The position numbers were made by a program, and so were the translations under genes. This document shows positions 2,139 through 59,314 of a DNA stretch of 64,000 nt, piece after piece. This DNA comes from a virus: positions 1-64,000 of IMG/VR virus record IMGVR_UViG_3300032286_000719. One strand, given 5' to 3'. Every line of letters starts with the position of its first letter. The stretch's first letter is position 1. Below the pieces are notes generated by a model, which saw only the letters and a program-made list of their open reading frames with translations, made no database searches and was not told where the DNA came from.

Positions 2139-3332
2139 ATGGCTGATTTTTCATTAACCACGTTATTCGTGGTTCCAGTAGGGCAGCAGGCTGTCCCTAG
2201 CTCTGGCTCAACACAAGACCTAACTGCAGGTACTGTGGGAATCTTTAACAACTTGTATGCTACAGTAGATGCTACAACTATTAAAGCTGCTCCTTATTTC
2301 TACGTTGCACAAGGTAGAGACAACACTTATCTTCAAGGATCTAAAAGATCTGACAAGATTGGAGTTCAAACAACTGCATTAACAGGTAATGCTCAAACAA
2401 TTTCAACAAAGAACTCTAATGTAACAGAATGGTACAAAGTATCAGGATGTCCTACAGCTGCTAATCAAATTACTGATGTAACTAATTTCACTGTACAATG
2501 TGGAGAAGTTATCACATTAACTTTGCGTGCTCACTCTTCTTACATTGATACATTGTATTTCAATGGTTTCACTCGTTCAGTAACAATCCAAGCTCCATGC
2601 TGTGGTTGTGACGAAAATCCATGTGATGATGTAAGTGATAACACTATCATCAACTTATTGATTGCTAAATTAACTCAACAAGCTCCTGGTATCAACCCTG
2701 ATAACATTAGTTTCAACACATTCTTTACATTTGAAAATGTAGGTGGTACAATCTTACGTATTACAGGAAAACCATTAACTCAATATGGACAACCTTGTGA
2801 TATTGCAGCGTTCCCATTTGAATATGACAGAATGTATTTCAGAACATTTGTATATGCTGGTCCAGCTACAACTGCTGACTTTATTGTTGCTGATAATTGT
2901 AACTTAGTTGCTAATCCTGTTATTACTCAACGTGCTTCTTATGCCACTGGTACATCTGCAGAAATTATCCAATTAGAGAAAAACTTCTACAGCTACCAAG
3001 CAGGTTACTTGAAACATTTATACAGAATAAATGGTTATAACGAAAACTTCGAATCTTATGTTTCTGCTGGTGAAACTTATAACACATTCTACATCAGATT
3101 CAATGAGTATAACAGATCTGAGTACCAATGGGGTGATTATATTCAACAAGACTCTACAGTTATTATTGCTATCCCACAAGGAGGTGGTAATTTAACTTCT
3201 GCGTTTGAAGCAATCTTAGTAGGTGCTTTAGGTGCTGTAGTAGATCAAGGTATTCCTTGTATCACAACTACAACTACTACATCTAGTGCTCCTGCATCAA
3301 CAACTACAACTACTTCTACAAATATTCCTTAA
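2139..3332 (+). CDS. Major virion surface/tail structural protein with Thr-rich tail
   Basis: A 397-residue beta-rich protein with strong Gly/Ala/Thr/Asn content, typical of an abundant virion protein. A cysteine cluster (APCCGCDENPC) sits near residues 151-161, separating an N-terminal beta domain from a second domain. Residues about 375-397 are almost only Thr/Ser with Ala/Pro, so this head- or tail-surface protein ends in the same low-complexity tract that joins domains in the downstream fibers. The leader is AATAAATAAATAAAATGG. A strong hairpin follows the gene (3368-3408). It could be a decoration protein or a tail tube/collar protein; the sequence does not decide. Confidence 0.55.
   Translation: MADFSLTTLFVVPVGQQAVPSSGSTQDLTAGTVGIFNNLYATVDATTIKAAPYFYVAQGRDNTYLQGSKRSDKIGVQTTALTGNAQTISTKNSNVTEWYKVSGCPTAANQITDVTNFTVQCGEVITLTLRAHSSYIDTLYFNGFTRSVTIQAPCCGCDENPCDDVSDNTIINLLIAKLTQQAPGINPDNISFNTFFTFENVGGTILRITGKPLTQYGQPCDIAAFPFEYDRMYFRTFVYAGPATTADFIVADNCNLVANPVITQRASYATGTSAEIIQLEKNFYSYQAGYLKHLYRINGYNENFESYVSAGETYNTFYIRFNEYNRSEYQWGDYIQQDSTVIIAIPQGGGNLTSAFEAILVGALGAVVDQGIPCITTTTTTSSAPASTTTTTSTNIP
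3261..3327 (+). repeat. Thr/Ser codon tract (terminal, 2139 gene)
   Basis: A short ACA/ACT/TCT tract encodes the Thr/Ser C-terminal tail of the upstream structural protein. It is the same type of tract as the fiber linkers but ends at a stop codon instead of joining another domain. Confidence 0.8.
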
Positions 3333-3989: not shown

Positions 3990-4085
3990 ATGGCACAATG
4001 TTCAGGATGTGGAGCTAATGTAGGCTGTGGATGTCAGCTGAAAAATGGAATGTGTGCAGCGTGTGCTGCAAAAGCAAATAAATAA
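3990..4085 (+). CDS. 31-residue cysteine-rich miniprotein
   Basis: The ATG at 3990 follows the previous stop (TAA 3985-3987) after two bases and gives a 31-residue peptide with six Cys in the order C-x2-C-x5-C-x-C-x7-C-x2-C (CSGCGANVGCGC ... CAACAA). The spacing resembles a zinc knuckle or rubredoxin-like metal site. Translation of this peptide pushes the start of the next gene downstream to 4096. I recall very similar tiny Cys peptides beside tail genes of other Bacteroidota phages, but their function is not known to me. A zinc-binding assembly factor is one possibility. Confidence 0.7.
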   Translation: MAQCSGCGANVGCGCQLKNGMCAACAAKANK

Positions 4086-4095
4086 AATTGTTATT

Positions 4096-5682
4096 ATGTT
4101 ATCACCAAGACTAACCAACTGTCCTGAATGCCCGGACATTTCATCTTTACTTAAAAAAATAGATTGCAAGTTAGCAGAACTTGGTAACAACTTGTACAAC
4201 AATATTTCATATATGTTGAATAAACCTGTACCTGCAGATGACATAACTCAATTTATAGGATATAGAAGAATATTAATGTACAAACGTATTAATCCTAGTT
4301 ATGTACAGGATTATTCTGTAGCTATGATAGCTAGTAGAGTGATACGTCTTACAGTGGGATGTGTAAGTAGATGTAATACACCAGAACCTTGTATAGAGGA
4401 ACGTTGTGATGTAACTATTGTACCAAATCCTACCAGTACTAGTACTAGTACACTTGCACCTATTACAACTACTACTACTACTAGTTCAACCAGTACTACA
4501 ACCAGTACTAGTACCACTTTAGTACCAACCACTACCACTACTAGTTCTAGTAGCACCAGTACAAGCACTAGTACTAGTTCAACAACAACAACATCTACTA
4601 GCAGTAGCAGTACAACAACTACTACAACAACATTTATTCCTCCAGGAGCTGTTCCAATACCAGTTTTACTTGAGTATCAAACAATATCACCAGTAGAAGA
4701 TATTGTTGTATTTAATATTTTAGAAGATACCTGTCTTTTTTTCTATAATCTAGAAACTAGTAATGTTAATTTAGGCTCACTTGTATTTGATATTACAACT
4801 TATTATTATGATGAAGAAACTTCAATGTTATATAATAGTGTTACAAATACTTTTGCTGAAGATGGTTATTATATTTCAGATGCACCTTTATATGTTACTA
4901 ATGGTTTAGTAGAAGTACTTACACAAGAAGATCTTGATGGATTATGTAATTTTACAACAACAACAAGTTCTAGTTCTACTAGCACTTCTACAAGTACCAG
5001 TACGTCTACATCAACAAGTACTTCAACAAGTACAACTACATCTACAACCACAGCTGCACCAACAACCACTACAACTAGTTCTAGCACCAGTACTAGCACG
5101 TCAACTAGTACTAGTAGTAGCACAACAACTACTACAACAACAATACCAACCCTTGCCTGTTCAGGTGTAACGAACGCTGGAGATAATGAAGTTAAGGATA
5201 CTTACATTGAATTAGACCCAAATGGTGGTGTCATTACAATGTTGTTTTTTGTTGGTGGCCAATCTGATAAATTAGAGATATATCATGGATTACCTGAAGA
5301 TGGTGGAACTAATAAGATGGCAACATCGTCTATGAATGCAAACAATAATTATGGTCCTTTTGATAATGTATGGGGAACAAACCCAAACCCAGTTCCAGCA
5401 ACAACTACTGCCTCTAATCAGCTACCCCAATTTATAGGTTCAAATAAAGGAACAATACCACAGCGTAGAACCCAATTTAGTGCTGATACAGGTCTTAATA
5501 TACCTGTTAATGGACTTGGTCAGATGGTGTTCCCTAACCCTAATTACCCAACTGATCCATATCAACAAGTTATATGGTGGAAATATGATTCCAATGATTA
5601 TTTAACTGACTCAACAGTAACAATTAGAGTTACAGGTGGAGGTGGAACAACAGGTTGGTCTTTTTATAGATGGTGTCCATAA
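4096..5682 (+). CDS. Tail fiber/adhesin with two mucin-like Thr/Ser linkers
   Basis: The ATG at 4096 is preferred (528 residues) over the in-frame ATG at 4045, which lies inside the miniprotein gene. Residues 1-110 form a mostly helical N-terminal domain with a CPEC motif, likely for virion attachment. Residues about 112-179 are a Thr/Ser/Pro linker, 180-286 a beta-rich domain with TYYYDEETSMLYN, 287-349 a second linker, and 350-528 a terminal domain rich in Gly/Asn/Trp. That layout is a stalk with two globular modules, as in a receptor-binding fiber. The ligand is unknown; no catalytic motif is seen. Confidence 0.65.
   Translation: MLSPRLTNCPECPDISSLLKKIDCKLAELGNNLYNNISYMLNKPVPADDITQFIGYRRILMYKRINPSYVQDYSVAMIASRVIRLTVGCVSRCNTPEPCIEERCDVTIVPNPTSTSTSTLAPITTTTTTSSTSTTTSTSTTLVPTTTTTSSSSTSTSTSTSSTTTTSTSSSSTTTTTTTFIPPGAVPIPVLLEYQTISPVEDIVVFNILEDTCLFFYNLETSNVNLGSLVFDITTYYYDEETSMLYNSVTNTFAEDGYYISDAPLYVTNGLVEVLTQEDLDGLCNFTTTTSSSSTSTSTSTSTSTSTSTSTSTTTSTTTAAPTTTTTSSSTSTSTSTSTSSSTTTTTTTIPTLACSGVTNAGDNEVKDTYIELDPNGGVITMLFFVGGQSDKLEIYHGLPEDGGTNKMATSSMNANNNYGPFDNVWGTNPNPVPATTTASNQLPQFIGSNKGTIPQRRTQFSADTGLNIPVNGLGQMVFPNPNYPTDPYQQVIWWKYDSNDYLTDSTVTIRVTGGGGTTGWSFYRWCP
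4431..4632 (+). repeat. Thr/Ser linker tract 1 of the 4096 fiber
   Basis: About 200 bases consist almost wholly of Thr and Ser codons, with one or two Pro/Val/Leu interruptions (LAPI, LVP). Thr codons ACA, ACT and ACC and Ser codons AGT, AGC, TCA and TCT are mixed without a fixed DNA period. The reverse strand gives a spurious Val/Leu ORF. Confidence 0.9.
4954..5142 (+). repeat. Thr/Ser linker tract 2 of the 4096 fiber
   Basis: About 190 bases of Thr/Ser codons encode poly-Thr, SSSS, a long (ST)n run, then poly-Thr, interrupted once by AAP. The block order matches tracts in the neighbouring fibers. Confidence 0.9.
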
Positions 5683-5736
5683 CCAACAGGGTAATAATAA
5701 AACTAATAATAAATCAAATTTTTAAAATAAAATAAT

Positions 5737-6825
5737 ATGTCAACTTGCTCAAATTGCTATAATGGATGTACAGAGATTGTCTCTGACAGATGTGTAAAAT
5801 ATACAGGAATAGATGTTCCTGTCCTAGGAATCCAAACAGGTGATTCATTATCATTTGTAGAACAAGCTTTAATTACATTCCTTGTATCAACATTAGATGG
5901 TACAGGAATAAAAATAGATCTTGGATCTACAGTGGTATGTAACCTTGTACAACAATATCTACCTACATGTGGAGACTTAACAATTGTAGATATATCAAAA
6001 GCTCTTATACAAGCTGCTTGTGATCTTCAAGTACAAGTGAATGCTATTAATGCTACACTTGCTACATTGAATGCTGATTATACAATTGGATGTTTGACAG
6101 GTGTTACAGCTTCTTCAGATACACATGCTATTGTACAAGCTGTAATTAACAAGTTGTGTCAAGTACAAGTTGATTTAACAGCATTAACTTTAAACTTATC
6201 TACTAATTATTCTAGTAATGGTGCACAGTTAGATGCTTACATAGCTAATTATTTAGCTACAAATTCTCCTACTTCTAATCTTATAAATAATAGAATGGTT
6301 CCTTATGCTGTAGTTGAATACTATGGTCCTGTTGCTGGTAATTTTGATGGAACAGGTAAAGGAACTGGAATTTGGGATAAAATATATCTATGTAATGGAT
6401 TAAATGGTACACCAGATAAAAGAGGAGTGGTAGGAGTAGGTGCTACAAATGGTGCAATGTTAGGAAATACAATGCCTGCACAGACTAATCCATCATTAGG
6501 AAATCCTACATATAATGTAGGTGGACCAATAGTAGGTAGCAATAATGTTGTCTTAGGACCTACACAAATACCTAGTCACACACACACTGCTACAGTTACA
6601 GACCCTGGACATACACATACAGTTACAGGATCGAATGCAAATAATGGTGATCCAGGAACTTTCTTTATTACTGCTGCTACAGAATCTAATGGTAATAGAA
6701 CTGTTGGAACACAAATTCCAAATATTACAGGTATAGGTGTAACTATTGGTCCTACAGGAGGAGGACAAGCACATGCAAACTTTCAACCTGGATTAGGTTG
6801 TTTATATATTCAATACAGACCTTAA
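5737..6825 (+). CDS. Tail-collar fiber with His-rich C-terminal tip
   Basis: Residues 1-50 carry Cys pairs (CSNCYNGC) and an adaptor motif (YTGIDVPVLGIQTGDSL) shared in outline with the proteins at 6838, 8118 and 51738. Residues 60-190 are helical/repetitive stalk. Residues about 190-362 match the phage tail-collar fold: WDKIYLCNG, then PDKRGVVGVGA, a paired HTHT...HTHT segment near residues 280-297, and a final HANFQPGLGCLYIQYRP. HxH pairs in such tips bind metal ions in a trimer, as in T4 short tail fibers. This is the one fiber in the first cluster with no Thr/Ser linker. It is a probable receptor-binding short fiber. Confidence 0.75.
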   Translation: MSTCSNCYNGCTEIVSDRCVKYTGIDVPVLGIQTGDSLSFVEQALITFLVSTLDGTGIKIDLGSTVVCNLVQQYLPTCGDLTIVDISKALIQAACDLQVQVNAINATLATLNADYTIGCLTGVTASSDTHAIVQAVINKLCQVQVDLTALTLNLSTNYSSNGAQLDAYIANYLATNSPTSNLINNRMVPYAVVEYYGPVAGNFDGTGKGTGIWDKIYLCNGLNGTPDKRGVVGVGATNGAMLGNTMPAQTNPSLGNPTYNVGGPIVGSNNVVLGPTQIPSHTHTATVTDPGHTHTVTGSNANNGDPGTFFITAATESNGNRTVGTQIPNITGIGVTIGPTGGGQAHANFQPGLGCLYIQYRP

Positions 6826-6837
6826 TAAATCAATAAG

Positions 6838-8082
6838 ATGGCATATCCTTTTTTACCAGTTAATCCTTGCTGTACAGACGTAGTCTTAAATAGTCCTTGT
6901 GGATGTAGTTCTACAATTTCTAATAGTGGTTGTGGACAAAATCCATGTGGAACTAATGTTATTCTATCTAGCAATGTACGTTATGATGGTCCTGTATTGG
7001 ATTGCATTATAGTTGAGCCATGTGATACACTTAATGTAATATTGCAAAAGATTGATGAGATTATATGTAATCTACTTGTTCAGATTAACACATTGAATAT
7101 TCAAGTGGCAAACATCACCACTCAAATAATCAATATTAATAATGAGATAATCAATATTAATACTACATTAGAAGGATGTTGTGGTGCTACAACTACTACT
7201 ACTACTACTAGTTCAACTAGCACTACAACTACCACAACCACTCCAATACCAACTACTACAACTACAAGTTCTAGTTCAACTAGCACTAGCACATCTACTA
7301 GTACGTCTACATCAACTAGCACTTCTACAACAACAAGTTCAAGTACGAGTACAACAACAACTACAACTACAGCTGGACCTACCACTACTACAACAACAAC
7401 AGAATTTTCTGCAGCTTGTACATGTTTAAATTTTAACATAACTCAAGAAGATATAGATGCTGCTACAGGAAATGTTATCCATGGAAATAATATAGTTAGT
7501 ATAAGTGTTGGAAAAGGTGCAGTATGTGGAGGTGGTGATTTTGGTCAGAATGTTACCTCTGCAGGAACAATAGGTATATGTATTGAAACTTCAGAAATAG
7601 GTACAGCTGATATACTTTATTATGTAAACGATATCCCTGTTTTCTACCCAGCTACAACAAGTACATATGACGTGTTATACTCTGCTTGTACAACAAATGG
7701 TGAATGTGTACCTACAACTACTACCACTAGTTCTAGTAGTACAAGTACATCTACGAGTACAAGTACCTCGACTAGTACATCGACCAGTACTACAACTAGC
7801 ACAACTACAATACCTCCAACTACAACAACAACTACCACTGTAATTTATTCAGCAGAATTTTCTATAGGAACTGCAAATAATGCTTTAGCTTGTCTTGAAA
7901 CTGTTGCAGTGATAACGTTATACTCAACTAGTTCTACGTTTGCTTTTGGAAGTTTTGTATACACTGATGCAGGATTAACAACTATATTTGTTGGAGGAAA
8001 TTTATATTATAAAAATATATCAGCAAATAATGTAATCAGAGTGCCTAATTCTGGACAGATTAACTCAACTAGCTCTTGTTAA
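6838..8082 (+). CDS. Tail fiber/adhesin with Cys-rich adaptor and two Thr/Ser linkers
   Basis: This 414-residue protein begins with nine Cys in the first 40 residues, then the adaptor motif YDGPVLDCIIVEPCDTLNVI (about 49-68) shared with 8118, 5737 and 51738. A short coiled coil (about 78-113, Ile/Asn heptads) may trimerise it. Linkers cover residues about 118-187 and 293-334; between them is a beta domain (189-292). The terminal 80 residues contain FVYTDAGLTTIFVGGNLYYK, a small module common in Bacteroidota phage fibers. It starts 12 bases after the collar fiber. The role is inferred as a receptor-binding appendage. Confidence 0.65.
   Translation: MAYPFLPVNPCCTDVVLNSPCGCSSTISNSGCGQNPCGTNVILSSNVRYDGPVLDCIIVEPCDTLNVILQKIDEIICNLLVQINTLNIQVANITTQIININNEIININTTLEGCCGATTTTTTTSSTSTTTTTTTPIPTTTTTSSSSTSTSTSTSTSTSTSTSTTTSSSTSTTTTTTTAGPTTTTTTTEFSAACTCLNFNITQEDIDAATGNVIHGNNIVSISVGKGAVCGGGDFGQNVTSAGTIGICIETSEIGTADILYYVNDIPVFYPATTSTYDVLYSACTTNGECVPTTTTTSSSSTSTSTSTSTSTSTSTSTTTSTTTIPPTTTTTTTVIYSAEFSIGTANNALACLETVAVITLYSTSSTFAFGSFVYTDAGLTTIFVGGNLYYKNISANNVIRVPNSGQINSTSSC
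7189..7401 (+). repeat. Thr/Ser linker tract 1 of the 6838 fiber
   Basis: About 213 bases encode Thr/Ser only, apart from PIP and AGP interruptions. The block order is poly-Thr, SSSS, (TS)n, poly-Thr. Confidence 0.9.
7714..7839 (+). repeat. Thr/Ser linker tract 2 of the 6838 fiber
   Basis: About 126 bases of Thr/Ser codons with a single IPP break join the middle and terminal domains. Confidence 0.9.
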
Positions 8083-8117
8083 ACTTTTAAATTTAAATTA
8101 TATAATAGCAATATAAT

Positions 8118-8957
8118 ATGGCTGATTGTCCTCAAATAAATAATACAACAATAATAGGAACGAGTGCTGTCTCATATGATAGCACTCCACTTCCTTGTAC
8201 AGATGTAAAAGCATGTGATAATCTTAATACAATCCTTACTAAGTTTGATAATGTTATATGTTCTGCCATAAACAGTGTAAACATCCTTAAAGAAGAGATA
8301 ACAAATATCACTGAGGACTTAATGATGATTACAGAAGAGATAGAGGATATAAATGATCAAATCTTTATATGTTGTCCTATTTGTGATTTTACAATAACTG
8401 CCACTGAATTACCTGTATGTGATTTCACTGCAAGTGCTACTGAATTACCTACATGTAATTTTACAGGAAATGTTAATCAAGTTCCAGATCCTACAACTAC
8501 TACAACTAGTAGTTCTACTTCTACTTCTACTAGTACAAGTACAAGCACGTCTACAAGTACTACTAGTACAAGTACATCTACTTCAACAAGTACTAGCACT
8601 TCGACTAGTACATCAACTTCAACAAGTAGTAGTACTACTACAACAACCACCACCCCTACACCTGGTGAGTTAGGACAGTGTTGGTCATTGACTTGGCAAA
8701 ACGACGAAGAACCACCTTCAACGTTATACGCTCGATATACTAATTCATCAGGCAATGAAGTAGATACACAAATAACTAATCTTCCTAGGACAGTAGGAAC
8801 TTTTGAAACCACAGCATATATCTGTTCATATTACCCTAATGCACCTAACTGTGTAAGTTATGCTGTAAGCCCACCACTTATTGTAACTTGTGACCCATAT
8901 ACTTGGTTTACTCAATTTAATACGTGTACGAACAACTTAAGTTGTCTCCAAACATAA
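8118..8957 (+). CDS. Tail fiber with adaptor, coiled coil, triplicated Cys repeat and Thr/Ser linker
   Basis: The N-terminal adaptor (YDSTPLPCTDVKACDNLNTI, about residues 20-39) is clearly related to the adaptor of the 6838 protein. A coiled coil spans about 45-83. Residues 89-125 are three tandem copies of a 12-residue unit beginning C-D/N-F-T (CDFTITATELPV, CDFTASATELPT, CNFTGNVNQVPD). The linker covers residues about 126-179. The 100-residue terminal domain has several Cys and Tyr and is not recognised. The leader is a 35-base AT-rich spacer. Role: probable receptor-binding appendage, by architecture. Confidence 0.65.
   Translation: MADCPQINNTTIIGTSAVSYDSTPLPCTDVKACDNLNTILTKFDNVICSAINSVNILKEEITNITEDLMMITEEIEDINDQIFICCPICDFTITATELPVCDFTASATELPTCNFTGNVNQVPDPTTTTTSSSTSTSTSTSTSTSTSTTSTSTSTSTSTSTSTSTSTSTSSSTTTTTTTPTPGELGQCWSLTWQNDEEPPSTLYARYTNSSGNEVDTQITNLPRTVGTFETTAYICSYYPNAPNCVSYAVSPPLIVTCDPYTWFTQFNTCTNNLSCLQT
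8493..8654 (+). repeat. Thr/Ser linker tract of the 8118 fiber
   Basis: About 160 bases of nearly pure (ST)n, flanked by poly-Thr at each end; one of the longest uninterrupted Ser-Thr alternations in the window. Confidence 0.9.
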
Positions 8958-9025
8958 TTAACCTTATTTAGTGGATGTAAAGTTTTATGTTGCAATTTAA
9001 TAATAAAAATAAATAAATAAAAAAT

Positions 9026-10258
9026 ATGATAATAGTAACAACATTAGTTATTCCTCCTGGAGGTGATGTAGGGCCATTTAATCTTTATTCAGATTCAGAT
9101 GGGTACACAGTTCCATTTGCAACGAATGTGTCTGCTGCTGCATTGCAAGCTGGATACAGTTCAACTGTACCTAATAATGCTACAATAATTAGAGTGGTGT
9201 CTACTGGATTATGTACAAACTTTATTGATTTAAATATAAATTTAATTACTACAACAACAACAAGTAGTTCTTCAACAAGCACAAGCACTACTAGCACTAG
9301 TACATCTACTAGTAGTAGTACTACAACAACAACAACAACGTGTTGTGTTGCTCAGAACGTAACAATTGGAATTCAAACTTGGTCGTCTTGTAACTTAAAT
9401 GTTTCTACATATAGTGATGGAACTCCAATTCCTGAAGTACAAGATGATGCTGAATGGGCAGCTTTAACCACAGGTGCTTGGTGCTATTTTAATAACGATC
9501 CTGCACTTGGATGCGTTTATGGTAAATTATATAACTGGTATGCAATGGTTGGTATATGGAATGAAGCCTCAAAAACAAATCCTGCATTGAGAAAACAGCT
9601 TGCTCCAGTAGGGTATCGTGTACCATCTATGAATGGTGATGTTGATACTTTAAGTACTTTTTTAGGTGGTTATACTGTTGCAGGTGGTAAAATGAAAACT
9701 ACAAATGCATCCCCTACTCCTATTTCAGGTGATGGATATTGGTATTCACCAAATGTTGGAGCTACTAATAGTAGTGGATGGTCAGCACTTGCAGGAGGTT
9801 GGAGATCTCATGGTACTGGTAGTTTTGGATTTGAACATTTTGAAGGTAAGTGGTGGACTGATTTGGGTGTTGAGAGTGGTGTTACTGAGAATTTTTCACT
9901 TTTTTATTTACAAGCTTCTTTAAATAAGGAAAATTATTTTAATGGGTTTAAAAGTCAAGGTTCTTCTATTAGAGTATTAGCAGATGACACTGGATTAATT
10001 ATAGGACTAAGGTCAAATACTAGTCTTGATTCAGGAGATGCTTGTCTTGAAGAGTTACTAACTTATTGTTATATTGACAACAATGGAATAGAGGGAAATT
10101 GGTATAGAGTGTACACTAACTCTGCAAGGGACCCATTTGATGGAAATGATAAATTTTGGCATTTACTAGATATAAATGCAGGAATTGAAGTTAGTGCTCA
10201 AATTGATACTGATGGATTTATTACACAACCTGTTACTGTTTGTATTCCACCACCATAA
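9026..10258 (+). CDS. FISUMP-domain adhesin with GPFNLY adaptor
   Basis: Residues 1-73 are an adaptor domain with GPFNLYSDSDGY and IIRVVSTGLC, shared with 10323, 10945 and the tail protein at 20977. A Thr/Ser linker covers about 75-105. Residues about 108-330 match the FISUMP family (Fibrobacter succinogenes paralogous domain): IGIQTWSSCNLNV, ALTTGAWCYFNNDP, YGKLYNWYAM, LAPVGYRVPS, ATNSSGWSALAGGWR, SIRVLADD. FISUMP domains are Bacteroidota/Fibrobacterota surface modules; a C-type-lectin-like binding role is assumed here. The last 70 residues (ELLTYCYIDNNG...) form a separate small domain. A second FISUMP protein is at 58315. Confidence 0.8.
   Translation: MIIVTTLVIPPGGDVGPFNLYSDSDGYTVPFATNVSAAALQAGYSSTVPNNATIIRVVSTGLCTNFIDLNINLITTTTTSSSSTSTSTTSTSTSTSSSTTTTTTTCCVAQNVTIGIQTWSSCNLNVSTYSDGTPIPEVQDDAEWAALTTGAWCYFNNDPALGCVYGKLYNWYAMVGIWNEASKTNPALRKQLAPVGYRVPSMNGDVDTLSTFLGGYTVAGGKMKTTNASPTPISGDGYWYSPNVGATNSSGWSALAGGWRSHGTGSFGFEHFEGKWWTDLGVESGVTENFSLFYLQASLNKENYFNGFKSQGSSIRVLADDTGLIIGLRSNTSLDSGDACLEELLTYCYIDNNGIEGNWYRVYTNSARDPFDGNDKFWHLLDINAGIEVSAQIDTDGFITQPVTVCIPPP
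9248..9340 (+). repeat. Thr/Ser linker tract of the 9026 FISUMP adhesin
   Basis: About 93 bases of ACA/ACT/AGT/TCT codons lie between the GPFNLY adaptor and the FISUMP domain. Confidence 0.9.
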
Positions 10259-10322
10259 ATTAAACTGAATACAATAAGTAAACTATTTATAAATAAAATA
10301 ATAATATAACAAACCAAATAAT

Positions 10323-10925
10323 ATGACAGTATTAATAACATTAACAGTAGCAGGAACAGACTCTGGACCATTTAATCTTTATTCAAATCTTGATGGATAT
10401 ACATCAGCTTTTGAATCAGGAGTGAGTAGAGCAGCTCTTTTAGCAGGATACGCTTCTGCATTAGTTCCTGATTTCACAACTATTGTAAGAGTACAATCTG
10501 TAGGGGATTGTAACAATCATATCGACATACAATTGTATGCTATTAGTACAACAAGTACTAGCACAAGTAGCACAAGTAGTACAACAACTACTAGTACAAC
10601 TGTTGCTAATACATGTTATGAATTTGAAAGTGATCCTTACACCACTACATTTTCAGCTCAATATATAGATTGTAATGGTGTTGTTCAAACAGCTAATGAT
10701 ACATGTTTATCTCCACCTTGTACATATACATTGTGTGGATTTGCTGTATTATCTAGTAGTTTACCTATAAATACTGTAGGAGTTTGTGGAACAACCACTA
10801 CTACAACTACATCTACTCCAACTACCACGACCACTAGTTCTAGTTCTAGTTCAACTACTACAAGCACAACTACTATAGTTGGTCCAACAACAACAACAAC
10901 AACTACTCCTGTTACTATTCTTTAA
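10323..10925 (+). CDS. Short fiber with GPFNLY adaptor, ending in a bare Thr/Ser tract
   Basis: Residues 1-72 are the GPFNLY adaptor (DSGPFNLYSNLDGY), followed by a short linker (75-93). A Cys-rich domain at about 96-155 has AQYIDCNGVVQTAND, similar to YTDCNGIYQTGN in the 59315 protein. Residues 157-195 are a second linker, followed only by PVTIL and a stop. The missing terminal domain suggests loss or exchange of the C-terminal module, although a naked stalk may be functional, since the proteins at 61257 and 61493 also end this way. The next gene starts 20 bases downstream with another GPFNLY adaptor. Confidence 0.65.
   Translation: MTVLITLTVAGTDSGPFNLYSNLDGYTSAFESGVSRAALLAGYASALVPDFTTIVRVQSVGDCNNHIDIQLYAISTTSTSTSSTSSTTTTSTTVANTCYEFESDPYTTTFSAQYIDCNGVVQTANDTCLSPPCTYTLCGFAVLSSSLPINTVGVCGTTTTTTTSTPTTTTTSSSSSSTTTSTTTIVGPTTTTTTTPVTIL
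10545..10601 (+). repeat. Thr/Ser linker tract 1 of the 10323 fiber
   Basis: A short Thr/Ser codon tract joins the GPFNLY adaptor to the DCNG domain. Confidence 0.85.
10791..10908 (+). repeat. Thr/Ser tract 2 of the 10323 fiber (C-terminal)
   Basis: About 118 bases of Thr/Ser codons with single Pro/Val/Gly breaks, running to just before the stop codon. Confidence 0.9.
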
Positions 10926-10944
10926 TCTTATAATAAATAAAAAC

Positions 10945-11976
10945 ATGACAATATTGATAACATTGACTTTACCACCTGGAGGTGACGCAGGTCCTTTCAA
11001 TCTTTATTCAAACACAGATGGGTATGTTACTCCATTTGCAACAAATATATCAGCTTCAGCTTTAATTGCTGGATATACAGCTACAAACGTGCCTAATGGA
11101 ACCACTACAATAAGAGTGCAGTCTGTAGGTGTATGTACAAACTTTGTTAATGTACAAGTTAATGTACTTCCTACTACAACAACAACTAGTAGTACATCTA
11201 CAAGTAGCACATCTACCACTACAAGTACTAGCACTACAGCTGTTCCAACTACCACTACAACTAGTAGTAGTTCAACAAGCACATCAACAACAAGCACATC
11301 AACATCAACCAGCACCAGTACATCTACAAGTTCAACTACTACTAGTACAACTACAGCAACCCCTACAACAACCACTACCACTACTCCAAGTGAGAATAAC
11401 TTAATTATTAATAATCAACAGTCAAGTGTTATAGTAGAAGGAATAACAGCAGGACCTTGTCCTGTAGCAAGTAGTGTACCTTTTGGTCCAGGAGGTGTTG
11501 ATTATGGATCTATTGGAACTTGTAATTCTGATATTGGTTTGGTATTTTCTGGAGTTTCTCCTGGTGATCATTGTATGTCACTTATTATAAATGGTATAAT
11601 AGAAGATGAGGTAACCTTTAATACAAATGGAACACATACATTTACTTTAACTCCACCAATTGCTAGTAATGATATAGTTGTAATAGTAATTAGAGATGGT
11701 GAATGTTTATCAGCTAGAGAAGGAGTTGTTTCAGCAACATCTGATCCATCAGATCCTTGTTCAATACCAATGACAATCCCTTGTTGGGTAGATGGTAATA
11801 CAGATATTGTCAATGGATTAACTGTATATACAGATATGTCAATGCTACAAGCATATAAATTTGTAGGTGATGGAGATTTTTATCACATAATATTAAATGA
11901 TTTTGGTCAGGATTACAGTACAATAATAACTAATGCTGGACTAATAGATACAGCAGTACCAGGAATATGTTTATAA
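10945..11976 (+). CDS. Tail adhesin with GPFNLY adaptor and long Thr/Ser linker
   Basis: The start at 10945 is chosen over the in-frame ATG at 10879 because the latter lies inside the repeat tract of the previous gene and adds a Gln/Leu artefact; 10945 has the usual AATAAATAAAAAC leader and gives MTILITLTLPPGGD like its paralogues. The product has 343 residues: adaptor 1-73 (GPFNLYSNTDGY), linker about 76-147, and a C-terminal part (148-343) with a beta-sandwich-like region (VTFNTNGTHTFTLTPP) and a last segment beginning IPCWVDGNTD. It is the last gene of the first fiber island and is followed by a strong terminator. Ligand unknown. Confidence 0.65.
   Translation: MTILITLTLPPGGDAGPFNLYSNTDGYVTPFATNISASALIAGYTATNVPNGTTTIRVQSVGVCTNFVNVQVNVLPTTTTTSSTSTSSTSTTTSTSTTAVPTTTTTSSSSTSTSTTSTSTSTSTSTSTSSTTTSTTTATPTTTTTTTPSENNLIINNQQSSVIVEGITAGPCPVASSVPFGPGGVDYGSIGTCNSDIGLVFSGVSPGDHCMSLIINGIIEDEVTFNTNGTHTFTLTPPIASNDIVVIVIRDGECLSAREGVVSATSDPSDPCSIPMTIPCWVDGNTDIVNGLTVYTDMSMLQAYKFVGDGDFYHIILNDFGQDYSTIITNAGLIDTAVPGICL
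11172..11386 (+). repeat. Thr/Ser linker tract of the 10945 adhesin
   Basis: About 215 bases of Thr/Ser codons broken only by AVP and ATP. The same block order is used as in the other tracts. Confidence 0.9.
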
Positions 11977-12156: not shown

Positions 12157-13371
12157 ATGTCTGATTATCAAAGCTTATTAGGTCAATTGCAAGAATTACT
12201 GACACAAAAAAAGAGTAAGAAATTCTATGCTGAAAGACTTGGAATAAGTGAATATGAAGTTAATGAGCTTTTAAAAGAGCTTAGGGAGAAGGACAATTAT
12301 CAAAACGCAGAAGGAAAAAACTATATAGAAGAACGAAAAGTAAATGTTGAAAAGGGTACAATAGAAAGTACAATTGTATCTGATTTTGATCCTAAAGATG
12401 ATCTTGAACTAGCTAAGCTACACAAGATAAACCTAGATAAATACATCATAACCAACTACTGGTCTAAGATGTTACCAAGTGGAAAGTTCACTTCCTCAAT
12501 CTTTTCTAAGAGAAAAGAAGCAAAAGATTACTCACCTGAGGACTTTGCTAAGTTTTTAGAAAACTACAAACCAGCCAATATATTAGTTACCAAAATACCT
12601 AACTTCAAAGATGTGGTAAATGTAGAGATATCTCTATCTGACTACCACTTAGCTAAGAGAACTGTAGATGGTGATAACAGTGTTGAAGCAAGAGCTAAAC
12701 GATATCTTGATGTGGCTCAATCTTTGATTAACAAAGTTGTATCTAATTATCATATAGACACTGTTATATTGCCTATATCGAATGATTTCTTTCACACAGA
12801 TAACTATCAACATCAAACTACAAATGGTACCCCACAAGACACTATAATGGATTATTCAGAAGAATATGAATTAGGGTTTTCTATTCTTGTAGATACAATC
12901 AACATGTTGAGACAGTATGCAAATCAAGTGGTGGTAGTCTTAGTACAGGGTAACCATGATAGAACTAAATCTTTCTACCTAGCACATGCGTTAGATGTAT
13001 TCTTTAAAGACACACATGATGTAGATTTTATAAGAGAACATAGTGTAGTTAAGGGAATCACATTAGGAAATACATTCATTGGTTGGCACCATGGTAACTG
13101 TAAGATAGAAGATCTTCCATTATTGTTTGCAACACATTCTCAATATAGTCAAGCATTTGGTAATGCTAAATACAGAGAGGTGCATACAGGAGATAAACAT
13201 CACTACATGGCTAAAGAAATCAAGGGAGTGAGAATACAACAAATGCCTAGTCTTTCAGGAACTGATAGATGGCACTTAGATAATAACTACGTACATTCAG
13301 TAAGAGCTGCTCTAGCATTAGTATATGATCTTGAGCTTGGTAAGATTGCTGAATTTGAAAGTCGAATATAA
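12157..13371 (+). CDS. Calcineurin-like metallophosphoesterase with N-terminal helix-turn-helix-like segment
   Basis: This 404-residue protein has the ordered metal-binding motifs of metallophosphoesterases: DYH at 162-164, SNDFFHTD at 208-215 (the GDxxD position), QGNHDR at 264-269, WHHGN at 310-314 and TGDKHHY at 344-350. These would bind two metal ions and cleave phosphodiesters or phosphomonoesters. Residues 1-45 (YAERLGISEYEVNELLKEL) look like a small helix-turn-helix. The substrate is unknown; nuclease or nucleotide phosphatase are both possible. It is the first gene of a new transcript and is followed two bases later by a neck protein, an unusual place for an enzyme unless it acts on packaged DNA or ends up in the virion. 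Confidence 0.8.
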   Translation: MSDYQSLLGQLQELLTQKKSKKFYAERLGISEYEVNELLKELREKDNYQNAEGKNYIEERKVNVEKGTIESTIVSDFDPKDDLELAKLHKINLDKYIITNYWSKMLPSGKFTSSIFSKRKEAKDYSPEDFAKFLENYKPANILVTKIPNFKDVVNVEISLSDYHLAKRTVDGDNSVEARAKRYLDVAQSLINKVVSNYHIDTVILPISNDFFHTDNYQHQTTNGTPQDTIMDYSEEYELGFSILVDTINMLRQYANQVVVVLVQGNHDRTKSFYLAHALDVFFKDTHDVDFIREHSVVKGITLGNTFIGWHHGNCKIEDLPLLFATHSQYSQAFGNAKYREVHTGDKHHYMAKEIKGVRIQQMPSLSGTDRWHLDNNYVHSVRAALALVYDLELGKIAEFESRI

Positions 13372-15567: not shown

Positions 15568-18500
15568 ATGGCTGAAGAACAATCAAGAAATAACATAAAT
15601 CAAGAATCTAACACTGCAATTACTGGTCTAAACTTAGATAGCTCTGTAAATCAAGTTAAACAAGGTTCATTGACCTATGCGTTAAATGCTGCAATTGAAA
15701 ATTTTGATGGTAATATAGTTAACTATCAAAATGAAATGGGTAATGATTTATGTGTCACCTTTCCAAAATCTTATTTACTAATTGGTACTCATTTCATTAA
15801 TGAGAAGAATAAACATATATTCTTTCTTTTAAATCCTTTGACATCACTGAGTCAAATTGGATATATGGAAAACAATGATTGTATCTATCATGTATTAGTA
15901 GAAGCTGCATGTCTTAATTTTAACGTTGATCATCCTATACATAAAGTTGTACATAAGATTACAAACTGTACAATAGAGTTATATTGGACAGATGGATTAA
16001 ACCCAAGAAGATGGTTAGACATAAATAATATTCCTTATTTATTGACACCTGGAGCAGATCTTTGTAACCCTGAGTTTACAAATGAATTAGATTGTAATCA
16101 AATTAAGATACAACCTAACTTTAGTATTCCTCAACTTAAAGTTGTAGATGTTAGATCTGGAGGAGAACTTATATCAGGAACTTATCAGTTTGCTATACAA
16201 TATTGTGATCCTGTAGGTAATCCATACACTTCTTATTACTCAGTAACAAACCCCACTCCTATAGTAGATTTAACAATAGCCACTGTAAATTTCAACACTC
16301 CTGTAAGTAAATCTATTGTAGTGGATATAACAGATCTTGATGTTACAGGACAATTTCAATACTATAATATAGCTGTAATTAAAACAATCAACAATGTTTC
16401 ATCTGTTGAGTTAGTAGGTACATATTTTATTGAAGAAAACTACGATCAAATTATATACACTGGAGAGGATCAAACTGCAACACAACTAACTATTGCTGAT
16501 ATATTTGAGAAATTTCCTTATTACGAAATAGCACAAGATATTACATCTGTACAAGATATTCTTGTATGGGACAACCTTACATCTATTAGTAGAATCAACT
16601 ATCAATCAATAGCTAGTCAAATAACTGTTCAATGGGAATCATATAGAATACCTGCTAATGAAAGTTATGAAGATGAGCTCAATGCTACAAACCTACGTGG
16701 TTATCTACGTGATGAGGTGTATGCACTTGAGATTGTGTTCCTATTAAAGAATGGAAAACAAACAGATGGTTTTCATATTCCTGGAAGAGAACAAAACTTT
16801 AATGAGTTTTCTCAACCAGATATACCTGATACGAGTGCTGACTTTATTGGTGAACCTGATTACTATTCAGGTGGTGTAGGATATAGTCCTTATTGGAAAA
16901 TATATAATACAGCTTCTGTTACTGGATCTTCTCCAGGATATTCTCCTGACCCTGCTTACAAAGGACCATATCAATATGGCCAAATGGCGTATTGGGAATC
17001 TACAGAAGAGTATCCTTGTAATGAAGATCTTTGGGGTGATCTTGCTGGTAAAAATATTAGACACCACAAATTTCCAGATGTATTAGTTTCTCCTATAAAT
17101 GAAACAAAGATATTCTCAGGTCCTACAACAATGGTGATGGGTAATGATGCTGTATTTCCTATTGGTATTAAGATAGATATTGGTCAGATATCAAATCTTA
17201 TATACAACTCTAATTTAACTGATGATGAAAAGAGTGAGATAGCAGCGTTTAAAATCATTAGAGGTAACAGAGGAGTACATAAATCTATTATAGCTAAAGG
17301 AATACTTCGTAATGTTAACTCTTATGAAAGAGAAGACCAATATTATTATTATCCAAATTACCCATATAATGAAACAGGTCCTGACGATGATCCATTCTTA
17401 AATGAGACGAACAATGCATGGACAGACATATGTGAACCATGGGAGATTAATGTATTAGAATTTAATCTACCTGAAGGTCCTGGTCCATATACATATGCAG
17501 AAGTTGAATACACTAGTTGTAACAATGATAAAATTGGTAAAAAACAATACAATAAAATAGGTAAACATACATTGTGCTCTATTACTAGACCTGTACCACA
17601 AGGAAATGGACCATTCAATAGAATGAGACTTAATAGAGCAAGTCTTGAGACTCCTGTTCCAGGAACAAAGATGAATGTGTCTCCAATGAATTATGATATT
17701 TATAAACTTCAAGTTAAGACAAATTTTCTTGGACTTCCTAGAGCTGGATGGAGAGCTCAATGGCAAGATACAGTGACAGGAATAACTGATTTTTGGGTAT
17801 GCTGTGGAAGAAGTTATTTTGTTAATTGTATAAAAGGAACTCGACCAGTTAGCATACAGAATAATACTGATAGAATTTCTGGACCAGAAGAAATTAGAGT
17901 TTCTGATTGTAAAACTGAAGCTCCTCAAAAACCTGTATCTGCTAAACCAGAACTAGCATACAGACAAGTATTTAATTCTCCAGAAACATCTTTTGGACAA
18001 CCTTTCTTAGGTGATATATTAAAGATTGAGAATGTAATATTTGGTAAAGGACTTGGTCACTTTGTTGAAGTGAGAGGTAATGCTAAATATAAATTGCTTA
18101 CAGAACAAGCACAAAGAGATGCTCTTCAGGCTTCACAAAATATTGCTAATCTTGGTGGTTTCAGTGCAACAGCAATGTTTACTGTATACCAATCATATCT
18201 AACTATTTATATTAATGGTATTACAAGAAGAAACTATGCTTATTCATATAACTCAATAGCTGATTATAATTATAATGTAGGAGTGGGTAATAACATTACA
18301 ATGAATGGTGTTACAGGTATCAAACAAAGACCACTTGACATTAAGAGATATCTTATCCCTGGTGTACAATCTGTTGGTGATACAATTGTTGTTAATGGTG
18401 TTACTAAAAACGCTCCCATCAACAATTATAGAAGAGAGTCAACTGTTTATTTAAGAACATCGCTTTTTAGAGAAGATGGAGTTACAGCAGTACCACCATT

Positions 18501-20973
18501 ACCATTACCAAGTAACAGTCCTAGTATGATTATAGGAGGTTCTTCTATCGTTACAGAAAAATCTAGAATAACTATTGGATCAAGTGGAGCATGTGCTACC
18601 CCAGCTAGAGAACAAGATATTAGCGTTGTATCTTATTATGCGTCATTGAAAAATATAGTGGTGAATCAATGGGGACAAATATATTCATACAGAACAGTAG
18701 ACACAGGATTCCAATCACCTATTAATCCTACCTCAACAGGAAATTCAACAGTGTTTGGTGGAGATACATTTATAGGTAGGTTTACATTCAAAACAAAGCT
18801 TCCATTCTTTATTGATAACAGAGTGAATGCTCCTGATGATTCAGATATATTCTATGACGAGATTGGTAATATAGCCTATCCAAAATACTGGCACTCTGCT
18901 AGATCCATTTTAAAAGACTACACTGTAGTATCAGGAGCAGTAGGAACATTATCTAATATTATTTCATACAAAGCACATAACTTTGATTGTCCTAATAATC
19001 AAGAACCTGGACCAACATCAACTCCTTCTTTCCCAGGACAAGATAATCCTAATAGAACATTCTATAATGGATACTTCTATTTGTTTGCTTATGGTATTCC
19101 TAACTTCTATTGTGAGAGTTCTTACAATACAGACTTAAGACAAGCGTTTAATAATAGAGAAGGTGATTTCTGGCCACACGTATCAACAGGTATTCCTGAT
19201 GATTGGGTACAAGAGAACTACGTATCAATTGCGTTTGACAATACGTACAACTACAATGTAACATTCTCTAAACAAAACAAAGAGAATAACTTTACTCATT
19301 TACCTGCAGACTGGAAGAAAGACTTCTGTTTCACATACTATCCATTCAGAACTATCTATTCAGATTCTCAAAATACAGATGCTGATAATAGAGTGAATAG
19401 CTGGTTGACATATAGAGCAGTTTCATATTTTGATTTTCCTCAAAACTATGGTAACTTAACATCACTAGATGGTATTCAGAATAAAGCTATTCTTGCTAGA
19501 TTTGAGAATAAGTCATTGTTATACAATACATTATTAACAATTGATACAAGTAATCCACAAGCTGCTTATTTAGGTAACCCTACGTTATTTAGAAGTTCTC
19601 CTCCAGTTGATTTTGCTGAAACAGATCTTGGATACGTAGGAAGTCAGAATAAGTTCTTATTGAAGATTCCACAAGGACAAATCACTGTAGATGCTAAAAG
19701 AGGACAAGTCTTTTTACTTGGTAGTGAAGGAGCAAAAGATCTTACATCGTTCTCTTCAGGAATGAACAACTTCTTTACAAACCATTTAGCTTTTGAAATA
19801 CTAAGATATTTTCCAAGTAAGGATGTAATGGTAAATGGTAAACTAGTTACTATCCCTGGAGTTGATATAGATAATCATTTCAATGGTATTGGATTACATG
19901 GTGTATACGATAACAGATATGAAAGAATTATTATAACTAAAATTGATTACATTCCTGTAGACTCTAATGTTAAGTATGATTATGTAACAAAAGAATTCTA
20001 TGTAGAAGAACCTATCGTTGGAAGTGCTCCACTTAGAACAATTGTAAGTTTACAAGATCCTGATTACTTCTGTAACAAGTCTTGGTCAGTTTCTTATAAC
20101 TTCAATACACAAAGCTGGATATCATTCCATAGCTATATTCCTAATTTCTACATAGGAGAAAATAACTTCTTCTATTCAGGAATTAATGGATGTTGCGATG
20201 GTTTTGATGTTGATTCTAATTCTACTTTTAATTTTGTGGCAGGAAAAATTATTCCTGACCCTCCAAAAACAACAACCACTACCACTACTATTAATGAACC
20301 AATTACCACAACAACAACCACTACTGGATTTAGTTGTGATTTGTCTGGAAATATTATAATAACTGATTGTTCCTTAGATGGTACAGGTGTGATCACAGTG
20401 GAACCAGCACCTCCACCTTGTGAGAGACCTACAGATTTAACAGAGAATGACTTTATTATTGGATATACAATAACATCTATACCAATAACTGTAGTGTCTA
20501 CAGCTAGTCAATCAGATGCTTGTAATGCAATTAATTATTTAAATACTATTCCACCAAACACAACAGTTGATGAAATAACAGTAAGTTACTCAGATCTTCA
20601 AATTGGATCAGTAATTTATGAAGGACCAAACTTCCAAACAGATTGTACAGTTATTTCTGATGGATGGTATTTTACAAATGAAAGTTCAGCTAGTGGAATA
20701 GTTTATGAAGTGATAAGTGGAATAATTACACAAATTGGAAATTGTTTCCCAACTACGACCAGTACTACTACTGAATCCTTCTGTACATCATATAGAGCTA
20801 TTAAAACAACTGCTGGTGTAACATCAATAACCTTTACAAATTGTTTAGGACTTTCAGAAACTGTAATTGTTGGAAATGAAAATGGTGGTGCTTCATCAGT
20901 ATCTTTCTGTGCAAAATGTTGTATATCTGCTCTGCCATCAGATGTAACACTAACTAATAATGGAATTTGTTAA
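15568..20973 (+). CDS. Giant tail-tip (stump/muzzle) protein
   Basis: This 1801-residue protein opens with LNLDSSVNQVKQGSLTYALNAAIENFDG, the start seen in crAss-like stump/muzzle proteins that close the tail tube. The body is a long series of beta-rich segments without membrane helices, as in P22 gp10-type tail needle/stabilisation hubs. Residues about 1568-1587 are a Thr-rich tract. After it come two Cys-rich mini-domains, the second (CTSYRAIKTTAGVTSITFTNC) similar in outline to the DCNG domains of the fibers at 10323 and 59315. Thus the tail tip carries fiber-type modules at its C-terminus, which may be surface exposed. It is the longest tail protein of the window and essential for ejection by family analogy. 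Confidence 0.75.
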   Translation: MAEEQSRNNINQESNTAITGLNLDSSVNQVKQGSLTYALNAAIENFDGNIVNYQNEMGNDLCVTFPKSYLLIGTHFINEKNKHIFFLLNPLTSLSQIGYMENNDCIYHVLVEAACLNFNVDHPIHKVVHKITNCTIELYWTDGLNPRRWLDINNIPYLLTPGADLCNPEFTNELDCNQIKIQPNFSIPQLKVVDVRSGGELISGTYQFAIQYCDPVGNPYTSYYSVTNPTPIVDLTIATVNFNTPVSKSIVVDITDLDVTGQFQYYNIAVIKTINNVSSVELVGTYFIEENYDQIIYTGEDQTATQLTIADIFEKFPYYEIAQDITSVQDILVWDNLTSISRINYQSIASQITVQWESYRIPANESYEDELNATNLRGYLRDEVYALEIVFLLKNGKQTDGFHIPGREQNFNEFSQPDIPDTSADFIGEPDYYSGGVGYSPYWKIYNTASVTGSSPGYSPDPAYKGPYQYGQMAYWESTEEYPCNEDLWGDLAGKNIRHHKFPDVLVSPINETKIFSGPTTMVMGNDAVFPIGIKIDIGQISNLIYNSNLTDDEKSEIAAFKIIRGNRGVHKSIIAKGILRNVNSYEREDQYYYYPNYPYNETGPDDDPFLNETNNAWTDICEPWEINVLEFNLPEGPGPYTYAEVEYTSCNNDKIGKKQYNKIGKHTLCSITRPVPQGNGPFNRMRLNRASLETPVPGTKMNVSPMNYDIYKLQVKTNFLGLPRAGWRAQWQDTVTGITDFWVCCGRSYFVNCIKGTRPVSIQNNTDRISGPEEIRVSDCKTEAPQKPVSAKPELAYRQVFNSPETSFGQPFLGDILKIENVIFGKGLGHFVEVRGNAKYKLLTEQAQRDALQASQNIANLGGFSATAMFTVYQSYLTIYINGITRRNYAYSYNSIADYNYNVGVGNNITMNGVTGIKQRPLDIKRYLIPGVQSVGDTIVVNGVTKNAPINNYRRESTVYLRTSLFREDGVTAVPPLPLPSNSPSMIIGGSSIVTEKSRITIGSSGACATPAREQDISVVSYYASLKNIVVNQWGQIYSYRTVDTGFQSPINPTSTGNSTVFGGDTFIGRFTFKTKLPFFIDNRVNAPDDSDIFYDEIGNIAYPKYWHSARSILKDYTVVSGAVGTLSNIISYKAHNFDCPNNQEPGPTSTPSFPGQDNPNRTFYNGYFYLFAYGIPNFYCESSYNTDLRQAFNNREGDFWPHVSTGIPDDWVQENYVSIAFDNTYNYNVTFSKQNKENNFTHLPADWKKDFCFTYYPFRTIYSDSQNTDADNRVNSWLTYRAVSYFDFPQNYGNLTSLDGIQNKAILARFENKSLLYNTLLTIDTSNPQAAYLGNPTLFRSSPPVDFAETDLGYVGSQNKFLLKIPQGQITVDAKRGQVFLLGSEGAKDLTSFSSGMNNFFTNHLAFEILRYFPSKDVMVNGKLVTIPGVDIDNHFNGIGLHGVYDNRYERIIITKIDYIPVDSNVKYDYVTKEFYVEEPIVGSAPLRTIVSLQDPDYFCNKSWSVSYNFNTQSWISFHSYIPNFYIGENNFFYSGINGCCDGFDVDSNSTFNFVAGKIIPDPPKTTTTTTTINEPITTTTTTTGFSCDLSGNIIITDCSLDGTGVITVEPAPPPCERPTDLTENDFIIGYTITSIPITVVSTASQSDACNAINYLNTIPPNTTVDEITVSYSDLQIGSVIYEGPNFQTDCTVISDGWYFTNESSASGIVYEVISGIITQIGNCFPTTTSTTTESFCTSYRAIKTTAGVTSITFTNCLGLSETVIVGNENGGASSVSFCAKCCISALPSDVTLTNNGIC
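20269..20325 (+). repeat. Thr tract in the tail-tip gene
   Basis: Two short poly-Thr runs (ACA/ACC/ACT codons) separated by INEPI link the large stump body to its C-terminal Cys-rich modules. Confidence 0.85.
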
Positions 20974-57270: not shown

Positions 57271-58296
57271 ATGGCAATACCATCAAGAGGAATAGGCTGG
57301 AGTACAGAAGATAACCTGTTATGGCAAATCTCTAAGCAATTAGAAAGACTAACGCAAGTTACAGGTAATAGTGTAAGTGGATCTCAAACACTTGCACAAA
57401 CACTTGTTATTGGAAACAATACAGGTGGAACTGATATACTATTAAATAATGATGATGCAATACAGTTAGAGAATAATTCTTCAATTAAAAAAGGAACTTA
57501 TGACTTTGGTCAAAATGGTGGTGTTTCTCGTATATGTGGAGTCGATTATGAGGATATGTGGCAAGGTGGAATTAGACACGTTTTTGATAACAATGGATAT
57601 ATTAGAAATTCAACAAATGGTTTTAATACAGTTCCTAATACCAGTTTTGATGATACTTTAAGATTTAAAGTAGGTTCATTTTGGACTTTAGATGATGGTA
57701 CTACTTACAAATGTATTGACAATAGTACAGGAGCAGCTGTTTGGGAATTATATTCTTCACCACCTAAATATAAAGTGTATACAGCTTTATTAACACAGAG
57801 TGGTTCTAGTAATCCTCAAGATATTAACTCAGGAAATTTAACTGTAGGTGTAACATATTTCATCAATAATAATGTGTTAGGAGATTTTACAAATGTAGGA
57901 GCACCTAATAATGATAATGGTACATATTTTGTGGCAACAGGTACAACTCCAGCTGACTGGGGTATAAATATTAGTGGTGATACACTTACTTTTGATACAG
58001 CAACTCCAATAGTAAGAATATTAGAAAACACTATTGGTGATGTTTGGTTTGTATATTTAGACCTTGGGAATTACGCTTGTTATTGCTCAACGCCTTTATT
58101 TACTGTTAATAAAACAACATTAAATAGTGAGATATTTTATAGTAACACTAACGACCAAATGTGCTCTTTAATTAGTAGCACAGGTGATTTTGACAGCCAA
58201 TCTGTAGTTTTTTCATCTGTAAGAAGTTCAGGGTCAATACAATTTGAAAATAACGCATTGCAAGATACATTTTTTGAAATAAGAGTGTACAACTAA
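57271..58296 (+). CDS. Tail fiber with MAIPSR adaptor
   Basis: The first 35 residues (MAIPSRGIGWSTEDNLLWQI SKQLERLT) are nearly identical to the start of the next two genes, marking an anchor that fixes alternative appendages to one virion site. The body of this 341-residue protein is beta-rich (residues 80-341) with a module ILENTIGDVWFVYLDL near 248-265 and an earlier DINSGNLTVGVTYFINN unit found in other phage fibers. It lacks a Thr/Ser linker. An 87-base AT-rich gap precedes it; within that, TATATTTG at 57200-57207 resembles a promoter -7 box without a partner. Confidence 0.7.
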   Translation: MAIPSRGIGWSTEDNLLWQISKQLERLTQVTGNSVSGSQTLAQTLVIGNNTGGTDILLNNDDAIQLENNSSIKKGTYDFGQNGGVSRICGVDYEDMWQGGIRHVFDNNGYIRNSTNGFNTVPNTSFDDTLRFKVGSFWTLDDGTTYKCIDNSTGAAVWELYSSPPKYKVYTALLTQSGSSNPQDINSGNLTVGVTYFINNNVLGDFTNVGAPNNDNGTYFVATGTTPADWGINISGDTLTFDTATPIVRILENTIGDVWFVYLDLGNYACYCSTPLFTVNKTTLNSEIFYSNTNDQMCSLISSTGDFDSQSVVFSSVRSSGSIQFENNALQDTFFEIRVYN

Positions 58297-58314
58297 TAAT
58301 ATATAAAGAAAGAA

Positions 58315-59301: not shown

Positions 59302-59314
59302 AATAAAAATAAAA

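Follow-up and report, generated by a model that had tools for sequence, protein, structure and literature searches.

How are the tips of a whole row of putative adhesin genes exchanged in a virus, and do the linkers that carry these tips drive the exchange or tolerate it? The question is raised by a stretch of 64,000 bases (the window; bases 1–64000 of the 112,819-base virus record IMGVR_UViG_3300032286_000719), in which the conserved genes A (2139) and B (3424) and an exonuclease gene (12157) bracket seven plus-strand genes at 4045–11976. In six of these genes an N-terminal domain (adaptor) is followed by a Thr/Ser tract and at least one C-terminal module; the exception is the gene at 5737. 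A preliminary description of this DNA had regarded the tracts as joints for the swapping of receptor-binding modules. A scan with the exonuclease as query yielded 402 related stretches; 80 loci from this set were retained. Together with the window they form a set of 81 arrays, or 64 distinct arrays after removal of 17 near-duplicates. All loci are metagenomic contigs.

The order of the adaptors was fixed in the 81 arrays, running A-B-1-2-3-4 and then 6, with slots 5 and/or 7 as optional paralogs beside slot 6. The modules behind the adaptors were assigned to 75 families; 49 of these had at least two members, and of the 49, 25 were found in at least two slots. FISUMP modules were seen in slots 1, 3, 4, and 5. 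At a core DNA identity of at least 93%, the terminal tip was common to 26% of slot pairs (random background: 9%). The pattern first described largely holds and is stronger than it appeared there, exceeding chance by far across the relatives. In close relatives, near-identical N-termini are joined to non-homologous C-termini, the pattern by which a modular phage receptor-binding protein is recognized, and new and old parts meet at the Thr/Ser linkers. Some tips resemble each other much more than the cores do. Two cross-slot moves are recent: the last tip of slot 3 in the window and the slot 1 tip of locus L008 are 98.6% identical (core identity 87.9%), and the slot 6 tip of L030 and the slot 7 tip of L043 are 99.5% identical. 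Module swapping at the linkers is real, recent, and frequent.

The extent of turnover was evaluated by parsimony on a core tree built on the exonuclease and the next gene from the 64 distinct arrays. Slot order changed 20 times (minimum 6), the presence of slot 7 12 times, and that of slot 5 10 times. Terminal tip families changed 31, 35, 36, 23, and 15 times in slots 1, 3, 4, 6, and 7, compared with 33, 44, 42, 26, and 20 times when labels were shuffled. Tip distribution is thus mostly independent of the core tree, on which residual clustering of tip families is seen, with little of it in slot 1. As the tip changes approach the shuffled expectation, full congruence of the tips with the core is excluded, and with it the fully congruent trees of adaptors and tips that the preliminary description had named as the outcome speaking against exchange.

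About half of the slot 1 and slot 3 genes and most slot 6 genes terminate in a tract followed by little or nothing (an open joint). Where slot 7 is absent, the slot 4 adaptor can bear the slot 7 tip of relatives (L031/L032, L020/L024, L011/L042), an arrangement that resembles the outcome of a fusion or a split of the two genes at their tracts. A separate observation concerns arrays with the order 4-7-6 (L011:4719–5084, L012, L020, L025, and others), in which the slot 4 gene is tipless in 8 of 10 genomes and the tip is on slot 7; some of these tipless genes stop just short of the expected tract start.

The ends of replaced segments were determined by a block analysis of differing segments of at least 60 nt in eleven close pairs (slot 2 excluded), which are not all independent (the window takes part in four of them). 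Of 26 left ends, 21 fell within a tract and five within an adaptor. Of 28 right ends, 15 were located in the leader (the stretch from the stop to the next ATG), 10 in a tract, and three in a tip domain. From feature lengths alone, 16% of left ends would be expected in a tract and 22% of right ends in a tract or leader (binomial p about 1e-12 and 1e-13, respectively). Internal modules had both ends in tracts, whereas the right ends of terminal tips lay in the leader, outside tracts. The predicted clustering of breakpoints in tracts, for which an alignment of relatives had been suggested, was therefore found for left ends; it does not extend to the right ends of terminal tips, nor to some crossovers that fall within adaptors. 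A strict x-drop junction scan gave 49 junctions in the tract, 35 before it, and five past it; it was set aside as primary measure in favor of the block analysis because it blends real crossovers with local divergence.

The cleanest events, each seen in a single pair, illustrate these boundaries. L001 contains a 246-nt in-frame module between two tracts that is missing in L005. L024 carries a 219-nt module plus tract within the slot 1 tract, compared with L016, and the next 1,559 nt of the two loci are 99% identical. In L077 and L079, whose cores are 100% identical, slot 1 has a FISUMP tip in the former and stops after a short tract in the latter. In cross-slot pairs, the left boundary is in or near the tract, and the right boundary is found up to about 25 nt past the stop or, for internal modules, near the next tract; a few of these pairs, mostly with slot 6 next in both, remain similar past the right boundary.

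Among tip pairs with at least 80% DNA identity, 4% were cross-slot (20% once slot 3 pairs were left out), versus 68% expected if the slot were irrelevant. Since DNA-similar tips mostly stay in their own slot, exchange occurs mainly slot for slot, although plain shared descent accounts for part of this pattern. Slot 2 offers a control, as no tract is present in this slot in the window nor in 42 of 62 arrays. In slot 2 pairs with a core identity of at least 94%, the N-terminus was 87% identical (median) and the middle 47%; of the 35 pairs, 20 had a middle with less than 50% identity.

We consider it probable that the locus is a fixed-slot adhesin array in which ordinary recombination, driven by the flanks, swaps the tips, with the tracts serving as tolerant joints that keep the frame. 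The layout of the array, the turnover of its tips, the places of the junctions, and the moves between slots were observed, whereas virion docking, receptor binding, the recombination enzyme, and any benefit of the exchange are inferred. The short, conserved, position-specific N-terminal adaptors would dock on the virion, and the flexible Thr/Ser linker would hold the small exchangeable tips, singly or several together, among which are lectin-like or Cys-rich beta domains. These tips are likely to recognize glycans or proteins on the host surface, as suggested by their position among virion genes and by the lectin-like members. Ordinary homologous recombination between relatives that infect together would account for most tip replacement, with homology provided by the adaptor upstream and by the 10–25-nt leader and the next adaptor downstream. 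Homology supplied by conserved flanking DNA would make most exchange slot for slot. Evidence for this route comes from the bias toward the same slot, the identity breaks located inside adaptors, the exchange in the mostly tract-less slot 2, and the presence of RecA and an exonuclease VIII-like protein in this genome. An in-register crossover or join within the linker would preserve the Thr/Ser frame and spare the folded domains, and this tolerance would also permit rarer insertions or deletions of internal cassettes, moves between slots, and fusion of an adaptor to the tip of the next slot.

Several points weigh against this explanation. Adaptor homology is unusable for cross-slot moves between non-homologous adaptors. 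Selection for intact domains gives junctions in tracts just as tract-guided recombination does, and where one tract is aligned with another, the precise site of crossover is blurred. Common descent or a function tied to the slot, instead of flank homology, may explain the same-slot bias. Finally, each indel event can be read as insertion or as deletion, and receptor binding and virion location are predictions from sequence.

The preliminary description had assigned a more active role to the linkers, in that the near-repetitive tract DNA itself would be the substrate and in-register pairing of tracts across genes and genomes would drive the swaps. Tract DNA was therefore compared in seven genomes, with codon shuffling within tracts and genome codon usage as controls. 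The longest strings shared by tracts of different genes were in frame in 100% of pairs, as anticipated from the claim that every tract reads in the Thr/Ser register. Exact matches between such tracts had a mean of approximately 15 nt and a maximum of 23 nt. These lengths corresponded to the codon-shuffle expectation (only L008 was slightly higher) and were mostly slightly under that from genome codon usage. The similarity of the linker DNA is thus genuine but no greater than codon usage yields. Within genomes, 0.3% of tract pairs shared an exact match of 24 nt and none shared 27 nt; the reported minimal exact pairing is 31–34 bp for RecA and 23–27 bp for Red beta (PMC3945230). With identity at the level of codon usage and matches usually below these lengths, near-repetitive tract DNA is not supported as the driver. 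Two features of codon choice were recorded in addition: AGY codons make up 54–66% of tract serines versus 30% elsewhere, and ACC accounts for 11% of threonine codons in tracts versus 3–4% elsewhere.

An exchange driven by tract pairing would agree with the concentration of junctions in tracts and the in-frame register of shared strings; however, the clustering of breakpoints is non-diagnostic because selection for intact domains predicts it as well. Tract length is also unstable: 12 of 16 indels of near-identical genes fell in tracts, which represent 14% of residues. Furthermore, cross-slot moves have no alternative homology on the left-hand side. Against this stand the tract identities and the short matches just described, the position of the right ends of terminal tips outside tracts, and the fact that slot 2 exchanges, mostly without any tract. 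Genes for RecA (PF00154, E 2e-85) and for an exonuclease VIII-like protein are present, but no match to a RecT or ERF annealase was found in the genome. Tract DNA as the driving substrate is therefore unlikely, though it is the strongest competitor to flank-driven recombination. The tract-less slot 2 control and the codon test suggest that the linkers tolerate rather than drive recombination. When a tip moves from one adaptor to a non-homologous one, only the tract is common to both on the left-hand side, so that a minor direct role of the tract is possible. A more specific version, in which the Thr/Ser tracts are true in-register joints and phage RecA and exonuclease pair the tracts of different adhesin genes, recombining cassettes among seven slots without a dedicated recombinase, appears doubtful; if true, one virus lineage would build new adaptor–tip combinations in this way.

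At the opposite extreme, the tracts could be pure spacers with no exchange role, and tips could be swapped by random illegitimate joining followed by purifying selection. Tract DNA is indeed not optimized for identity, and by inspection the L001/L005 junction showed no more than about 4 nt of common sequence. Nevertheless, the tendency of DNA-similar tips to keep their slot points to flank homology, and certain identity breaks lie within adaptors; such joining as the sole route is rather improbable.

FISUMP domains have reportedly been linked to targets of diversity-generating retroelements (DGRs), so that dedicated machinery, either a DGR or site-specific inversion, was also considered as the shuffler of the tips. 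Zeta crAss-like phages apply DGRs to their tail fibers (PMC12386605), and the present system resembles these in that probable host-binding proteins, partly of the C-type lectin type, change fast. Unlike in those phages, whole modules change rather than sites of adenine-directed point mutation; the alternative tips are domains without relation to one another, not alleles with point mutations. No reverse transcriptase was found in this genome or in the records of nine relatives, and the DGR was discarded on this ground. Searches for a tyrosine integrase or serine resolvase gave none, and the array contained no long inverted repeats as known from invertible tail-fiber switches; a switch operated by an invertase or integrase was rejected, as neither a site-specific recombinase nor informative inverted repeats were found. 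We regard dedicated diversification machinery as extremely improbable.

As every locus is metagenomic, low-complexity DNA and common adaptors could mislead assemblers, and chimeric contigs fused at the tracts would mimic mosaics. Usual assemblers finish with k-mers longer than 27 nt, a length over which within-genome tracts never match exactly. Identical module strings recur on contigs of different sample numbers (for example L038–L041, L051/L053/L055, and L070/L072/L075), which argues against chimeras, and reading frames are intact. An assembly artefact is accordingly very improbable.

Phage adhesin modularity is already known, usually for one or two fiber genes. Smug et al. (2023, PMC10684548) describe domain mosaicism and ongoing shuffling in phage receptor-binding proteins; what differs here is that six to seven parallel slots are present per array, tips change slots, and one recurrent low-complexity linker is found at nearly every joint. 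In T-even gp38 adhesins (PMC12892980; Trojet 2011 via PMC8651126), glycine-rich motifs flank hypervariable segments. Compared by description, not sequence, both systems place constant low-complexity motifs between variable receptor-binding segments. The gp38 motifs, however, belong to one folded tip (a poly-glycine sandwich) encoded by a single gene, whereas here whole domains are mounted on long Thr/Ser linkers in many genes. Antireceptors of Streptococcus thermophilus phages carry collagen-like repeats between domains (PMC5601072), and there too, repeat linkers part conserved from host-specific variable domains; these involve a single gene, collagen-like repeats, and a Gram-positive host, and PMC5601072 describes no multi-slot array. 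An open literature search found no paper describing the present array, so that its novelty is judged on open papers only. In the present lineage as many as seven adaptor slots lie in parallel and keep their order, and most tips have turned over while the core is >93% identical. The array represents a natural data set on the rebuilding of host range and a clear test case for linkers driving versus tolerating recombination. It also provides a catalogue of small tips in about 75 families, and for several of those in the window no Pfam match was obtained.

In the window, all array genes are on the plus strand. Gene A (2139–3332) encodes a conserved protein with a short tract at its end and no tip. 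The slot 1 gene (4045–5682) comprises an adaptor (~4045–4428), a tract (~4429–4629), a module, a second tract (~4951–5151), and a terminal tip. Slot 2 (5737–6825) encodes a tail/collar-type fiber (PHROG tail families) without Thr/Ser tract, in which the N-terminal ~135 amino acids are conserved and the middle is exchanged. Slot 3 (6838–8082) has an adaptor, two tracts (~7189–7410 and ~7714–7809) separated by a module, and a terminal tip; slot 4 (8118–8957) has an adaptor, a tract (~8493–8660), and a tip. In slot 5 (9026–10258), adaptor (9026–9247) and tract (9248–9340) precede a FISUMP tip. Slot 6 (10323–10925) consists of an adaptor (10323–10544), a tract (10545–10601), a small Cys-rich tip, and a tract at the end (open joint), and slot 7 (10945–11976) of an adaptor (10945–11172), a long tract (11173–11391), and a terminal tip. 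The adjoining DNA repair exonuclease (12157–13371, plus strand; phrog_704, E 1e-52) is conserved and served as core marker. Long open frames in other frames or on the other strand run across the tracts at 4311–11404 (e.g. 7122–7439, minus, and 7181–7429, plus); they are by-products of the repetitive ACN/AGY codons.

The adaptors of the genes at 9026, 10323, and 10945, initially described as identical, are related only, with 53–62% amino acid and 58–72% nucleotide identity. A confident structure model of this slot 5/6/7 adaptor (A2) showed a small, mostly beta domain (pLDDT 90). The commonest small Cys-rich tip (A1), in which four cysteines are invariant or nearly so, was modeled with similar confidence as a beta domain of five strands (pLDDT 92); neither gave a significant match to PDB folds. 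A PDB sequence search with the virion neighbors and the 58315 protein gave no match.

A second array with paralogous short adaptors (MAIPSRQIGWST..) is located at 57271–60190 on the plus strand, with FISUMP on the gene at 58315 and small Cys-rich modules on that at 59315. FISUMP (PF09603) was assigned in the 9026 gene with E 1e-24 (88.1 bits) and in the 58315 gene with E 2e-39 (136.5 bits; Pfam gathering cut-off 33.9 for both). The module does occur behind both adaptors, as first noted, but the two domains are only 53.5% identical and their kinship is old. The link drawn between 10323 and 59315 through a DCNG domain rests on a 15-residue motif (8/15 identical), although the 59315 module has a whole-domain relative in the first array of another genome (L008 slot 3, 58% amino acid identity). 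Between the first and second array kinship was at family level only (at best ~79% DNA identity over part of one domain), and recent exchange between them was rejected on this basis.

Tract and tip modules also form the C-terminus (20260–20973, plus strand) of an 1801-amino acid virion protein (15568–20973), in which Thr tracts at the end are followed by modules with 31% identity to slot 3 cluster 6 (E 1e-6); tips may thus hang on a large structural protein, too. The small ORF 61493 (within 61404–61735) consists mostly of Thr tracts, with further tract coding just upstream (61404–61484), and the region looks like a tipless or eroded slot.

PHROG family matches were obtained in this genome for the major head protein (MCP), terminase, and portal. 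Among cultured phages, the head proteins closest to this one are those of Flavobacterium phages Fpv1–4 and Leptolyngbya phage Lbo-JY46, at 20–24% identity only. The predicted host is probably a member of the Bacteroidota. A comparison of the first 25 kb with 50,697 phage records gave no near match, and relatives of the MCP and the exonuclease were distant only. Lbo-JY46 (L164, PP438436.1) has the order head protein, variable region, exonuclease in common with this lineage and is without Thr/Ser tracts; its recorded cyanobacterial host is surprising in a relative of Flavobacterium phages.

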